Made by a program: the position numbers and the translations under genes
Source of the DNA: Glutamicibacter creatinolyticus
Lineage (GTDB): Bacteria > Actinomycetota > Actinomycetes > Actinomycetales > Micrococcaceae
Length of the DNA stretch: 64,000 nt
Direction: 5' to 3'
NCBI RefSeq assembly: GCF_006094275.1
Contig: NZ_CP034412.1
Coordinates: forward strand, 2,542,001-2,606,000
Shown: positions 24,454-57,391 of the stretch, piece after piece
Numbering within the stretch: the first letter of the stretch is position 1
Layout of the letters: each line of letters begins with the position of its first letter
The notes under the pieces: model-generated
Told to the model about the DNA's origin: nothing
The model's database searches: none
The model's input: the letters and a program-made list of their open reading frames with translations, nothing else

Positions 24454-25233
24454 TTACAGCTGGCCCAGCACGCTGTCCATGATCTGCTTGGCGACCTGGC
24501 CGAACTGTTCATCGGCCAGCGATTGGCCGGAGATGAAGGAGACCATGGCCACGTACTGGCCTTTGGTCTGCACCAGCACCAGGGTGTCCTGGGCGGTGTC
24601 CGCGTTGCCGCGCCGGGTGTAGGCCAGCTGGGACTCCACCTCGCCGACCTGCGGGTTGCTGAACTTCAGCGTCTCGGTGTACTCGCTGCGGTTCAGCTTC
24701 ACGCTGGAGCAGTCGGTGCGCATGGTCAGCACGGTCTTGAAGTGCTCCTCCACCGGGGCCCGGTCCGCGACCTTGGCCACCTCCACCGAGCCGGCGATGT
24801 TCCCGGCCTGGTTGGTGAAGTCGGTGCGCGCCACCTCGGTGCCCAACTGCGCCGGGGACCAGTTCAGCGCCTCCAGCGGCTGCTCGCACTGGGAGGGCAG
24901 CACCACCACATCCTTCAGGGTGTCGGTGGGCGGGGTGGCCAGTTCCTTCAGCTGCTCCTGGCCGATCCGCTGGGACTGGTCAAAACCCAGTTGGGCGGCG
25001 AAGACGGCACCGACCTGGGTGGCCAGCTCCACGGTGGAGGCCTGCCCGGTTTGCTCGCTGCTGCCCGGTTCGGGGCTGGGCAGCGGCTTGCCGCTGGGCT
25101 TCGGGTTGGCGGTGGCGGAGACATGGATGTCATCCTGCGGCATCTGCTCGGCCTGTGGTTCTGCCGAGCAGCCCGCCAGCAGCAGCCCGGCCACCAGCAG
25201 TCCAGCGCCGGCCCTGAATCGTTTAGCTGCCAC
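24454..25233 (-). CDS. Lipoprotein of unknown function next to copD
   Basis: A 259-residue lipoprotein: a basic N-terminus, the hydrophobic GAGLLVAGLLLAGCSA lipobox (Cys near residue 22), a low-complexity Ser/Pro/Gln linker (about 25-70) and a globular domain to the end with two cysteines (CEQPLEAL and TDCSSVKL). I do not recognise the domain; it is distantly reminiscent of mycobacterial LpqN/PknH-sensor-like exported domains, at low confidence. The GTG at 25233 has AGGGAG four bases upstream and overlaps the copD-ctaG stop by 11 bases, so it is co-translated with that gene. Its role may be connected to copper handling. Confidence 0.7.
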   Translation of the reverse strand: MAAKRFRAGAGLLVAGLLLAGCSAEPQAEQMPQDDIHVSATANPKPSGKPLPSPEPGSSEQTGQASTVELATQVGAVFAAQLGFDQSQRIGQEQLKELATPPTDTLKDVVVLPSQCEQPLEALNWSPAQLGTEVARTDFTNQAGNIAGSVEVAKVADRAPVEEHFKTVLTMRTDCSSVKLNRSEYTETLKFSNPQVGEVESQLAYTRRGNADTAQDTLVLVQTKGQYVAMVSFISGQSLADEQFGQVAKQIMDSVLGQL

Positions 25234-27358
25234 GGTGCTCCCTGTGCTCAACTTGCTGCTCCATTTTCTTGTCCATCTGCTTCAGCCGGGCGAACATTTC
25301 GTTGTAGGCGGCCAGGTCCGCGTCCCCGTCACGGTCCGCCTGGCGGTCCACGCGCTTCTTCTCCCGGTCATCGCTGCGCGCCCAGGTGATCATCACGGCG
25401 ATGGCGATCACCAAGGTCGGCACCTCGCCGATCGCCCACATCGCCCCGGCACCGACCACCTGGTCCTCCAGGGCGCTGCCGCCCCAGGTGCGGCCCATGT
25501 TGCCGAACCAGTCGGCGGCCAGCAGCGTGTCGGTGCTCATCAGCGCCACGGCGAAGAACGCGTGGAAGGCCACGGTGGCCAGCAGCAGCAGCAGGCGGAA
25601 CGGGTAGTTGAAGCGGAACGGGATCGGGTCGGCCTCAATGTGGCTGAGCACGAACAGGTAGCCGGTGAGCAGGAAGTGCACGTTCATCAGCTCATGCCCG
25701 GCGTGGTAGCGCATGGCCGGTTCCAGGATCGGGGTGAAGTAGAAGATCACGATGGACCCGGCGAAGTTCACGGCGGCGAAGATCGGGTGGGTGATGACCT
25801 TCGAATACGGTGAATGCACCAGCCACAGGATCCATTCGCGGGCCCCGCGGGTCCCGTCGGTGCGGGTGGGCAGCACCTTCAGCGCCAGGGTGACCGGGGC
25901 GCCGAGCACCAGGAAGATCGGCACGATCATGGTCAATGACATGTGATCGATCATGTGCACCGAGAACTGGATTTTGCCGTAGACGGTCAGGGCGCCGCTG
26001 GTGACATAGAACAGGGCCACCAGGCCCACAATCCAGCTGATCAGGCGCAGCACGCTCGGCTTGTCCCCGCGCCGGCGCAGGGTGATGAACGCCCACAGGT
26101 AGAACACCAGCAGGAACACGCACACCGCCACCCACAGCCAGTCCGGGCGCCACACGGTGAACCAGCTGGAGGTCTGCAGCGGTTCGGGCAGCTCATAGCC
26201 GGTCAGCAGCCGGGCCGGGGTAGGCTCGGTCGGCGGGTCATCCGGGGTGGGCGGTGCGGTGCGGGAGAGCACGGTGGCCACCGACATGGTGGCGCCCATC
26301 AGCGCCACCTCCACGGCGATTACCCGCCAGGCCGCGGCCACGGCACTGACCTTCCCGGCCAGCAGCCGGGGAATGTTCCAGTTGCGGTGCGCCAGGCCCA
26401 GCGCCCCCAGGATGAGGGTCAGCACGATCTTGGTGATCACCAGGGTGCCGTAGGGGCTCAGCCACTGGTCCCAGTCGGTGATGCGGATCAGGGCGGAGAC
26501 CAGCCCGGAACCGGCCATCAGCACGATCGCGCCGGCGGCCAGGGTCGAGTAGCGGCGCAGCACCACGCCCAGCAGCAGCGGCCGGTCCTGGTAGCGTCCC
26601 GGGGCCGGGCCGGTCAGGGTGGGGGTCAGCAGCCCAAGCACCACCAGCCCGCCGAACCACAGCACCACGGCCAGCAGGTGCAGCCCGATGCCGTTGACCG
26701 CGGCGTAGTGGTCATCCCCGCCGGCGGCGTGGCCGATGAAGGCCAGCGGCACGATTCCCAGCAGGGAAAACCCGGCCACCAGACCCACCCCCACCTGGGA
26801 ACGCACGGCCAGGGCCAGGGAGGTGACGATCGCGGAGATCACGATCATCCACGCCCAGGCCCGCCCGGTGGCGATCTGCAGGATGTAGTCCAGGATCGCG
26901 GCGGTGTAGTTCGGTTCAAAGTTGATCGGCACCCCGGCCAGGTCCCAGAAGGTCAGGATCAGCACGCTGCCGGCGGCCAGCGTCCACACCACCCCGGCCC
27001 CTGCGGCCAGGTTCATGGCGCGGGTGAAGGAGGGGTGCTCCGTGCCGGCGTCGGTCACCGGGTTCTCCGCGGTGGGCCGGCGCGACTTGGTGCTGCGCGG
27101 GATGATGCAGGAGGCGAAGATCAGTGCCGCGATGGCCACGGACATCGCGGTGTGGTGGATGATCCGGCTGATCGGCAGCGCCCAGCGCACGAACCCGCCC
27201 GGATCAGCCAGCAGCCGGGGGGCGGTGATGCCGCCGACCAGCACGGCCAGCAGGAAAGCCACCACCATGCCCAGCACACCGGGGATGATGAAACGGGTCA
27301 GTTTCGGGACAGGCATGCCCAGCTCAGCCTGCCGGGGTTCGCGTGATTGTGTCGCCAT
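25223..27358 (-). CDS. CopD-CtaG fusion membrane protein
   Basis: A 711-residue fusion. Residues about 15-350 are a CopD-type copper resistance domain with eight or so helices (including HTAMSVAIAALIFASCIIP, GLHLLAVVLWFGGLVVLGLL). Residues about 385-660 form a caa3-type CtaG domain with GKIQFSVHMIDHMSLTM, and histidine-rich helices (HAGHELMNVHFLLTGY). CopD imports copper and CtaG-type proteins are associated with cytochrome oxidase assembly, so the fusion probably moves copper across the membrane for cuproenzymes. A charged, Met- and His-containing cytoplasmic tail ends it. Fusions of this kind are known in actinobacteria. It shares the strand with Dyp, PCuAC and CopC genes upstream. Confidence 0.92.
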   Translation of the reverse strand: MATQSREPRQAELGMPVPKLTRFIIPGVLGMVVAFLLAVLVGGITAPRLLADPGGFVRWALPISRIIHHTAMSVAIAALIFASCIIPRSTKSRRPTAENPVTDAGTEHPSFTRAMNLAAGAGVVWTLAAGSVLILTFWDLAGVPINFEPNYTAAILDYILQIATGRAWAWMIVISAIVTSLALAVRSQVGVGLVAGFSLLGIVPLAFIGHAAGGDDHYAAVNGIGLHLLAVVLWFGGLVVLGLLTPTLTGPAPGRYQDRPLLLGVVLRRYSTLAAGAIVLMAGSGLVSALIRITDWDQWLSPYGTLVITKIVLTLILGALGLAHRNWNIPRLLAGKVSAVAAAWRVIAVEVALMGATMSVATVLSRTAPPTPDDPPTEPTPARLLTGYELPEPLQTSSWFTVWRPDWLWVAVCVFLLVFYLWAFITLRRRGDKPSVLRLISWIVGLVALFYVTSGALTVYGKIQFSVHMIDHMSLTMIVPIFLVLGAPVTLALKVLPTRTDGTRGAREWILWLVHSPYSKVITHPIFAAVNFAGSIVIFYFTPILEPAMRYHAGHELMNVHFLLTGYLFVLSHIEADPIPFRFNYPFRLLLLLATVAFHAFFAVALMSTDTLLAADWFGNMGRTWGGSALEDQVVGAGAMWAIGEVPTLVIAIAVMITWARSDDREKKRVDRQADRDGDADLAAYNEMFARLKQMDKKMEQQVEHREHRGS

Positions 27359-54291: not shown

Positions 54292-54867
54292 CTAATGCAG
54301 GGATTCGAGGAGGTAGTCCAGCTGCGCCAGCAGCTGCTGGCGCGAGTTGCCCGCATGGTCCAGCACGGCGGTGATCTGCGCCCCGAGCAGGAAGGTCATC
54401 AGCGCATTGCGCGCCACCTCCACGCGCTGCGGGTCCAGGCCCGGCACCTGGTGCAGCCAGCCATCGAGCTGGCGGCGCCAGTCATCCATGGAGTTTGCGT
54501 TCAGCTGCGCCATCTTCTCATCCTGCAGGGCCACGTGCCAGAAGTGGATGACCACCCGGGACTCGTCGCGGCGCTCCTCATCCAGCGGCAGCACCTCGGC
54601 GGCGAAGGCGCGGATGGCAGCCATTCCCGCCAGGCCGCGGGTGGTGCGGGCGATGCGCCGCCCGGTGGAGTTGAACACGAAGTTGAACGTGGCCGAGAGC
54701 AGCGAGTTGCGGGTGGGGAAGTACGGTTTGAGCCCCCCGTTGGCGTAACCGGCCGCGGCGGCCAAATCACGCAGGTTCAGCTTGTCGAAGCCCTGCTGGG
54801 CAATGAAGCGCCAGGTGACTTCGATGATTTCGCGGCGGCGCTGCTCATGGTCAACGATCTTGGGCAT
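54292..54867 (-). CDS. TetR-family regulator (BetI-like)
   Basis: A 191-residue repressor with the helix-turn-helix at about residues 28-52 ([19 protein letters not shown], then [11 protein letters not shown]) and a helical ligand-binding domain resembling BetI ([18 protein letters not shown]). It is divergent from the copper amine oxidase gene with 126 bases between, and a 20-bp palindrome (54933-54952) overlaps the putative oxidase -10 box. It is therefore the likely repressor of the oxidase, released by an amine or aldehyde. Confidence 0.9.
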
Positions 54868-54993: not shown

Positions 54994-56904
54994 ATGAAGA
55001 CTCGCACCGTGGACTACACCCTGCTGGGCGCCGAGGAAATCGCCGCCGCCCGCCGGCTGCTGCAGGAGAACAACCTGTTCACCGCCTCCACCCGCATCGC
55101 CTACCTGGGCCTGGAGGACCCGAACCCGCAGGCCCCGGCCCGCCGGGTGCGAGTCATGCTCATGGATTCGGCGCTGAATGAGCCCAAGGACGTGGTGCTG
55201 GACCTGACCCGCAACGAGATCGAGCAGGTCACCGAGATCGACGCGGCGGCCGTGGGGCAGCTGCCGGTGCTGGAGGAGGAGTTCGAAAAGGTCGAGGCCA
55301 TCGTGGCCGCGGACGAAGGCTGGATCCAGGCGCTGGCCAAGCGCAACCTCACCGTCGAGCAGGTGCGCGTCGCGCCGCTGTCCGCCGGCGTCTTTGAGTA
55401 CCCGGAGGAATCCGGGCGGCGCATCCTGCGCGGGCTGGCCTTCCGCCAGGACTTCGCAGAGGACTCGGCTTGGGCCCACCCGGTGGACGGGCTGGTCGTC
55501 TACATCGACACCGTCGCCGGCAAGGTGGACCAGATCCTGGACTTTGGACCGGTGGACATCCCGGCCGACCACGGCAACTACACCGACCCCGAGCTCACCG
55601 GCCCGATCCGCGACACCCAGAAGCCGCTGCTGATCACCCAGCCGGAGGGCCCCAGCTTCACCGTCACCGACGGCAACCACGTCGAGTGGGAGAAGTGGAG
55701 CCTGGATGTGGGCTTCGACATGCGCGAGGGCCTGGTGCTGTACAACATCGCCTTCGACGACAAGGGCCAGCGCCGACGCATCCTGGACCGCGCCTCGATC
55801 GCCGAGATGGTCGTGCCCTACGGCGACCCCTCCCCGGTGCGCAGCTGGCAGAACTACTTCGACACCGGCGAATACCTGATCGGACGCATGGCCAACTCCC
55901 TGGAACTGGGCTGCGACTGCCTGGGCGAAATCCACTACATCTCCCCGGTGGTGGCCACCGCCGACGGCGAGGCCCGCACCATCCACAACGGCATCTGCAT
56001 GCACGAGGAGGACTCCTCGATCCTCTCCAAGCACTCCGATGACTGGTCGGGGGTGAAGTACACCCGACGCAACCGCCGCCTGGTGATCAGCTTCTTCACC
56101 ACCGTGGGCAACTACGACTACGGCTTCTACTGGTACCTGTACCTGGATGGCACCATCGAATTCGAGGCCAAGGCCACCGGCATCGTGTTCACCTCCGCGA
56201 TGCGCGACGAGCGCTTTGCCTCGGAGATGGCCCCGGGCCTGGGGGCCCCGTTCCACCAGCACATCTTCGGCGCCCGGCTGGACTTCGCGCTGGATGGCGG
56301 GCCGAGCCAGGTCATCGAGGAGGAGGCGGTGCGCCTGCCGATCAGCAAGGAGAACCCGCGCGGCAACGCGTTCAGCCGCAGCCACACGGTGCTGTCCACC
56401 GCCAAGCAGGCGGTGCGCGATGCGAACATGCCCGCCGGGCGCTCCTGGGTGGTCACCAACCCGGAATCGAAGAACTACCTGGGCAAGCCGGTGGGCTTCA
56501 AGCTGCACCCGCAGGGCCTGCCCACCCTGCTGGCCGCCGAGGGCTCCTCGATCCACAAGCGCGCCACCTTTGCCTCCAAGGCGCTGTGGGTCACCAAGCG
56601 CGAGGCCGGGCACCGCTACCCCACCGGCGACTTCGTGAACCAGAACCCGGGCGTGGAGGGGATCAACGACTGGATCGCCGATGACCACAGCGTGGACACC
56701 CAGGACATCAGCCTGTGGCACACCTTTGCGCTGACCCACTTCCCGCGCACCGAGGACTGGCCGATCATGCCGGTGGACTCGGTCGGGTTCAAGATCCGCC
56801 CCGAGGGCTTCTTTGACCGCTCCCCGGTGCTGGATGTGCCCGAGCCGGTCAAGCACGGCTGCTGCTCCTGCGGTGAGACCGAGTGCTGTGGCGGCGGAAA
56901 CTAG
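54994..56904 (+). CDS. Copper-containing primary amine oxidase
   Basis: A 636-residue quinoprotein oxidase that converts a primary amine, O2 and water to aldehyde, ammonia and H2O2. The TPQ precursor is Tyr374 in VGNYDYGF; the catalytic base is Asp290 in [10 protein letters not shown]; copper ligands are His421 and His423 (HQHIFG) and His582 ([10 protein letters not shown]). Spacings fit the Arthrobacter phenylethylamine and histamine oxidases. ATG at 54994 has GGAAGG nine bases upstream. No signal peptide, so probably cytoplasmic. The C-terminus ends [16 protein letters not shown], with five cysteines, a likely metal-binding tail. Substrate (tyramine, phenylethylamine, histamine) is not decided. 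Confidence 0.96.
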
Positions 56905-57391
56905 GCGCACCGCGGGCACCTGGGTGCTGGCCGGCGGCGCCGCGGCGCTGGCGGCCGCCCACGTGCTGATGCTGCTGGCCCTGCCCCACTCTCCAGGCTG
57001 GGTCATCGCCCTGGGCGTGATGACCCTCTGGTGCCTGAAGTGTTCGGTGGACGCCCTGCGCACCGGGCAGCTGCTGGGGCTGCTGCTGATGAGCGCGGCC
57101 ATGGGCATTGCGCACGTCGTGATGGTGCTGGGCCTGCCGCTGGGGCACGCCGGACACGCGGCGCATGCCGCGGCTTCCGGCGGCCATGCGGACGGGCACC
57201 TGTGGATGCTGGTGATCGCGCTGGCCGAATTCACCCTGATGTTCGGCTGCGCCCTGGGGATCAGCGCCGGGCGCCGGGTCCGCGGTTCCACCGCGGCCCG
57301 CAACGCCGCCGGGTGCGCCGTGGCGCACCGCAGCACCCGGAGCGCGCGCGCCGTCCCGGCGGCCGCGCCCCTGGTGCCCTCCGGGTCTTGA
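56888..57391 (+). CDS. His-rich four-helix membrane protein overlapping the amine oxidase gene
   Basis: A 167-residue membrane protein in the reading frame +1 to the oxidase, starting at a GTG (56888) inside the last codons of the oxidase gene (17-bp overlap). Four hydrophobic helices are predicted (about 10-33, 36-55, 61-80, 103-122). The loop after helix 3 is strikingly His-rich, [19 protein letters not shown], and helix 2 contains a CLKC motif; a Cys is also in helix 4. The tail is Arg/Ala-rich. I know no named family. Coupling to a copper enzyme suggests copper delivery or membrane attachment of the oxidase; this is inference. The next gene has its own control region. Confidence 0.7.

Follow-up and report, generated by a model that had tools for sequence, protein, structure and literature searches.

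The window (the whole stretch of DNA that was analysed, 64,000 nucleotides) lies in a 3.31-Mb Glutamicibacter genome. It contains a copper amine oxidase (CuAO) gene, a divergently transcribed regulator gene and, overlapping the 3' end of the CuAO gene, a short gene for a membrane protein that we call the partner (Table 1). The CuAO belongs to the same family as AGAO and AGHO of Arthrobacter globiformis. It matches the Pfam families PF01179 (1.8e-146), PF21994 (AGAO-like N2; 5.5e-17) and PF02728 (N3; 1.5e-7), scores 795 bits against NCBIfam NF008559, for which the cut-off is 651, and reaches approximately 920 bits in sequence comparison with the AGAO structures 1av4 and 1rjo. All of the active-site motifs of the AGAO type are present, namely the TPQ motif TxxNYD/E, the three histidine copper ligands and the catalytic aspartate. 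No N-terminal signal peptide is visible in the 636-residue sequence. A similar BetI-type TetR regulator adjoins the CuAO genes of many relatives.

Table 1. Features of the CuAO-partner locus, with positions in the window
Feature	Position	Strand	Basis
BetI-type TetR regulator, divergent from CuAO	54292-54867	-	Pfam PF13977/PF00440
CuAO, AGAO/PEAO type (primary-amine/phenylethylamine oxidase)	54994-56904	+	636 aa; Pfam, NCBIfam, AGAO alignment
CuAO catalytic Asp in YGDPS	55819-55833	+	Motif; aligned to AGAO 1av4
CuAO TPQ site, GNYDYG	56107-56124	+	Motif; aligned to AGAO 1av4
CuAO copper ligands, HQH	56254-56262	+	Motif; aligned to AGAO 1av4
CuAO third copper-ligand His, in LTHFPR	56731-56748	+	Motif; aligned to AGAO 1av4
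CuAO Cys-rich C-terminal tail, 14 residues, 5 Cys	56860-56901	+	Sequence, tail comparison
Overlap of partner start and CuAO end, 17 bp	56888-56904	+	ORF coordinates
Partner gene, 167-aa four-helix membrane protein with His/Cys/Met signature	56888-57391	+	ORF, homologues, AlphaFold2, alignment
Partner H25, TM1, invariant	56960-56962	+	45-homologue alignment
Partner TM2 MxxxCxxC: M45 (94%), C49 and C52 invariant	57020-57043	+	Alignment; predicted towards cytoplasmic end
Partner TM3 MxxxMxxxH: M68 (89%), M72 (95%), H76 invariant	57089-57115	+	Alignment
Partner His loop, predicted extracellular: H87, H90 (invariant), H93 (98%), H100, H104	57146-57199	+	Alignment
Partner M107, after His loop	57206-57208	+	Alignment
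Partner E114, TM4, acidic, 85% conserved	57227-57229	+	Alignment

The partner reading frame begins with GTG, and AlphaFold2 (mean pLDDT of 82) places the four main helices of its product at residues 9-31, 36-59, 63-81 and 101-152. The ORF coordinates and this model agree with the first-pass annotation of the locus, which had described a 167-residue four-helix protein that overlaps the oxidase gene by 17 bp. Its reading of the composition of the two proteins also holds: the five histidines (87, 90, 93, 100 and 104) fall within one loop of 18 residues, the CLKC motif of the membrane protein corresponds to C49-C52, and five cysteines occur in the last 14 residues of the oxidase. Longer antisense ORFs overlap the partner ORF and represent the usual chance artefact of high-GC DNA. 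We regard the partner ORF as a real gene because it is conserved in 15 other Glutamicibacter genomes (36-56% identity), each time immediately 3' of CuAO; the only two congeners that lack the partner also lack CuAO. The 17-bp overlap points to probable translational coupling of CuAO and the partner, and in several congeners the partner likewise starts, with GTG or ATG, at the corresponding position of the CuAO tail. As a general feature of the pair, the overlap was rejected: outside Glutamicibacter, the two genes usually do not overlap, and across all downstream cases the distance between the end of the CuAO match and the start of the partner profile match has a median of +58 nt (range -31 to +273).

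To which family does the partner belong? The first-pass annotation knew of no named family for it, and our searches gave none: neither Pfam nor NCBIfam has a family that covers the partner alone or its 15 homologues (E of 1), and none in Pfam covers a set of 45 homologues (E of 0.1). Weak matches of single members, to DUF350, DUF5935, claudin and others, were inconsistent between homologues and were taken as chance. The best PDB sequence match of the partner profile has an E of 0.076, and Foldseek with the partner model returned no match below E of 0.001. The matches obtained with VIA-align are generic helical bundles, including the copper storage proteins Csp3 and Ccsp (Z of 9.2-9.8). These proteins are likewise four-helix bundles lined with metal-binding residues, but they are soluble, contain many cysteines and have no sequence relation to the partner. 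Such Z scores are common for helical bundles, and the match to Csp3 and Ccsp, which does not rise above those to other bundles, was set aside as evidence.

The partner is closely tied to CuAO across the Micrococcaceae. When 345 genomes of this family were searched with a 28-sequence partner profile and, separately, with CuAO, the partner was found in 143, CuAO in 172 and both in 141. The partner is missing from 171 of the 173 CuAO-less genomes (Fisher p = 1e-62, uncorrected for phylogeny), and one (G618) of the two genomes that have the partner and no CuAO at threshold retains a CuAO fragment. Among the 150 CuAO genes listed, the partner lies directly downstream on the same strand in 100, divergently and no more than 400 bp upstream in 12, and up to 15 kb away in 14, with none nearby in the remaining 24. 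CuAOs with a divergent partner represent a second subtype; the divergent-type partners form one clade, and the divergent-type CuAOs form a matching clade. Where a genome has two CuAOs, each is often accompanied by a partner of its own (e.g. in G005, G007, G024, G576 and G630). A mirror-tree comparison of 45 partners with the CuAOs of the same loci gave r = 0.70, and none of 2000 permutations was as high. The first-pass annotation had suggested scoring how often homologues adjoin amine oxidase genes and had named a lack of such conservation as refuting its reading. The outcome favours that reading, being a very strong association that extends over several gene arrangements and is accompanied by agreeing trees. 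An ancient functional pairing of the partner and CuAO would be the simplest account of this pattern, and the partner is very probably dedicated to CuAO.

Two observations concern the margins of this distribution. In one genus (g7; L126-L137), the partner is located 2.7-14.5 kb upstream of CuAO and does not adjoin it. A phylum-wide search returned one match outside the Micrococcaceae, with no CuAO in the fetched flank. This distant member of the partner family (L163:1450-1872, + strand) is a 141-aa frame with an H/CxxC/MxxxH/HHHG signature. Its genome belongs to another family of the same class, outside the order of the Micrococcaceae, and contains CuAOs elsewhere; the neighbours of the gene are epoxide-hydrolase-like and flavin-monooxygenase-like genes.

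The residues that the partner family conserves are almost exclusively potential metal ligands. In the alignment of 45 homologues (126 columns), histidine, cysteine or methionine occupies nine of the ten columns that rank highest in conservation (p = 3e-8 versus the column make-up); L108 is the only non-ligand among the ten, and M68 comes next. H25, C49, C52, H76 and H90 are invariant, and H93, M72, M45, M107 and M68 are conserved at 89-98%. M45-C49-C52 and M68-M72-H76 are each spaced by three or four residues, which would place them along one helix face. Positive-inside counts (K+R per sequence) amount to 0.04 in loop 1, 2.22 in loop 2, 0.33 in loop 3 and 2.36 at the C-terminus. Because of these counts, the His loop is predicted to be outside and the CxxC inside, together with both termini and the TM2-TM3 turn. 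With this topology, the ligands would span the membrane, with the His loop and M107 on the outer side, H25/H76 followed by M72/M45 in between, and M68 together with C49/C52 on the inner side.

What is the significance of the cysteine-rich CuAO tail? The first-pass annotation had counted it among the features that point to copper handling. Comparison shows that it is not special to the pairing: 115 of 116 distinct actinobacterial CuAO C-termini from the fetched loci contain cysteine, including those from partner-less genomes. Over these 116 tails, cysteine makes up 11.6% and histidine 11.2% of the residues, in comparison with 0.7% and 3.0% of the CuAO body, and 52 of the tails have a single cysteine. 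Comparable Cys/His tails are found on CuAOs of only 39-49% identity from outside the Micrococcaceae, which have no partner gene in their vicinity, and the idea of the tail and partner as an exclusive co-evolved pair was rejected. Judged from these distant CuAOs, which share the tail without the partner, the Cys/His tail is an old property of actinobacterial CuAOs and the two CC pairs are a Glutamicibacter elaboration. AGAO itself ends in a Cys/His tail (full-length A. globiformis AGAO terminates in SGSHCHG), whereas the Glutamicibacter tail has two CC pairs and the overlap with the partner gene. In a near relative with an AGAO-type tail, the partner gene follows CuAO directly (L027/L162). The chains of many solved AGAO structures end at DVPA, ahead of the tail. 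The tail is dispensable for folding and catalysis in vitro and fits a role in metal acquisition. The DNA for the Glutamicibacter tail doubles as the start of the partner gene, and this may constrain the tail sequence.

TPQ formation is a self-processing reaction for which copper and O2 suffice, and apo-AGAO needs nothing beyond Cu(II) and O2 to mature in vitro (PMC3382800). Thus, the partner is hardly a TPQ-forming enzyme, and a role in copper supply or metal fidelity is likelier. Zinc inactivates apo-AGAO and resists displacement by copper (PMC3382800). Given that zinc blocks apo-CuAO and that TPQ needs copper, a cytosolic CuAO needs to receive copper before zinc. A precedent exists in CcoA, a copper importer dedicated to one cuproenzyme, the cbb3 oxidase (PMC7558416, PMC5829832), and this precedent, together with the need for copper before zinc, favours a dedicated Cu(I) conduit. 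The first-pass annotation had read the locus as copper handling coupled to TPQ enzyme maturation. The copper-handling part is supported by the His/Cys/Met conservation, and the reading is corrected in two points: the tail is not specific to the pair, and TPQ formation is self-processing.

Because the partner adjoins CuAO in most CuAO-bearing soil Micrococcaceae and nearly all of its conserved residues are of copper-binding kinds, it probably brings copper to CuAO inside the cell. We propose, with middling confidence, that the partner is a copper conduit dedicated to the AGAO-type cytosolic CuAO and the founding example of an unnamed Micrococcaceae family. The elements of this proposal differ in strength, in that the partner is likely to bind copper, it may or may not move copper inward with about equal plausibility, and its direct handover of copper to the CuAO tail is somewhat doubtful. 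In the proposed conduit, the extracellular His loop would collect copper, and Cu(I) would move along a His/Met ladder in the four-helix bundle (H25, H76, M72, M45 and M68) until it reaches C49/C52, the CxxC pair at the inner end of TM2. The CxxC would then pass copper to the flexible Cys/His tail of newly made CuAO; the tail would load the three-His site of the enzyme, which would subsequently generate TPQ by itself. The synthesis of both proteins would be coupled in Glutamicibacter by the partner start codon within the CuAO tail. The advantage of such a route would be that copper instead of zinc enters the apo-enzyme in a cytosol with very low free copper. In a further-reaching version, which is rather improbable, the partner would be a minimal, self-sufficient four-helix Cu(I) channel whose transmembrane CxxC delivers copper and not zinc directly to the Cys/His tail of its client during synthesis, with no separate chaperone involved. 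Evidence against a conduit comes from maturation in vitro, which proceeds without the partner, from CuAO-bearing genomes without a detectable partner, from CuAO tails that exist without it, and from relatives in which the partner is kilobases from CuAO or, outside the order, not beside one. Neither an energy source nor an oligomeric pore is evident for the partner.

How does the partner compare with known copper importers? For bacteria, very few are named in reviews of the subject (PMC2147054, PMC7558416). Copper uptake by CcoA needs intramembrane MxxxM and HxxxM motifs (PMC7558416, PMC5829832), to which the MxxxMxxxH and MxxxCxxC of the partner are similar. However, CcoA/CalT proteins are 12-helix MFS transporters, whereas the partner has 167 residues, four helices, no Pfam match, no CalT-like MFS profile match and, as its proposed client, a cytosolic amine oxidase. 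CopD, YcnJ and PcoD are bacterial inner-membrane permeases that have been proposed to import copper (PMC7558416). They contain eight helices and a PF05425 domain; the partner has neither, and PF05425 matched none of its homologues. The sole CopD match of the genome lies in the window at 26267-26563 (- strand), within an ORF of approximately 711 aa (25223-27358) about 28 kb from CuAO, and this CopD-domain protein is a candidate general copper importer. CTR1/COPT proteins are small and combine a His/Met-rich outer part, an MxxxM in a helix and cytosolic Cys/His residues for Cu(I) handover. The partner is also a small membrane protein with predicted outer histidines, a helix MxxxM and predicted inner cysteines, but CTR1/COPT protomers have three helices, form a trimeric pore and carry a ligand-rich N-terminus, whereas both the AlphaFold2 model and the alignment of the partner show four helices, and its ligand-rich segment is the TM3-TM4 loop. 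No Ctr family match was obtained in Pfam for the partner (E of 1) or for the 45 homologues (E of 0.1). If our reading is right, the partner would resemble copper importers in its working without belonging to any of these families.

A minor but appreciable possibility is that the partner transports nothing and acts as a membrane copper chaperone or docking site, which would receive Cu(I) from another importer (e.g. of the CopD type) or from CopZ and load the tail of a membrane-held CuAO through its CxxC. Such a role shares the genetic and ligand evidence that speaks for a conduit; moreover, the CopD-domain protein and the HMA domains of the genome could supply the copper, and four helices in 167 residues are small for a solitary permease. 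However, the ligands cross the predicted membrane from H90/H93 and M107 to C49/C52, which is more than cytoplasmic docking needs, and the extracellular His loop would be left without a role.

It is unlikely that the partner handles a metal other than copper or meets another need of amine catabolism (heme, zinc or manganese, ammonia, aldehyde), with the linkage reflecting an amine operon. Histidines in transmembrane helices can bind heme, a ZnuA-type binding protein is encoded nearby, and the L163 relative adjoins other enzymes, but the linkage follows CuAO itself, in both of its subtypes and in several gene arrangements, and the combination of conserved Cys, Met and His is one typical of Cu(I). 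The ZnuA-type gene (PF01297; 61857-62858, - strand), at a distance of 4.5 kb from CuAO and the partner, is a possible zinc or manganese uptake locus. CuAOs make H2O2, and His/Cys/Met-rich membrane proteins are also known in metal resistance. A protective partner that would sense or remove copper, or a different metal, set free near the H2O2-producing CuAO is nevertheless very unlikely, given that 141 of the 143 genomes with the partner also have CuAO and that no homologue has an ATPase or antiporter signature. Least likely is a DsbB/VKOR-type redox protein that would maintain the tail in its reduced state or convert Cu(II) into Cu(I): an invariant CxxC in a four-helix membrane protein beside a Cys-rich tail would suit it, but the CxxC is predicted in a helix near the cytoplasmic end of TM2 and not in an extracytoplasmic loop, the partner has no second conserved Cys pair and no DsbB/VKOR profile match, its conserved Met and His would be unexplained, and 52 of 116 CuAO tails have only one cysteine.

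We know of no bacterial protein named for bringing copper to a cytosolic amine oxidase. A review of AGAO biogenesis mentions no chaperone, the papers found contain no description of a partner of AGAO or AGHO, and the open-access literature yielded no description of the partner protein or the CuAO tail. The partner bears on the question of how bacteria metallate a copper enzyme in the cytosol, where free copper is scarce and competition by zinc does damage. AGAO is a model enzyme for TPQ biogenesis, with many solved structures, and the partner is a concrete candidate for copper delivery to such an enzyme in vivo. The channel version of the conduit, if true, would represent enzyme-specific metal import and insertion without a separate chaperone, and the near-ligand-only conservation of the partner makes the copper hypothesis testable by single mutations. 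The partner family also hints at what the Cys/His tail of CuAO, a segment missing from many crystal constructs, may be for.

The pairing has exceptions. In 31 CuAO-positive genomes, no partner is detectable, a result that stood when all candidates were scored with a 45-sequence profile and that indicates that the partner is not obligatory for CuAO or for its tail. Two genomes without the partner (G598 and G543) carry CuAO genes with in-frame stop codons (L105 and L106), which are probable pseudogenes. One related genus (g10) has two genomes in which the gene directly 3' of a partner-less CuAO encodes a four-helix membrane protein of another kind (L107:4934-5446, + strand; L110:2416-2967, - strand). 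These proteins, which are 71% identical to each other and contain MLACC, Met-rich helices and an HAH motif, were considered as undetected partner homologues beside Arthrobacter-like CuAOs and rejected, as hhalign found no relation with the partner family. They are possibly an independent replacement for the partner.
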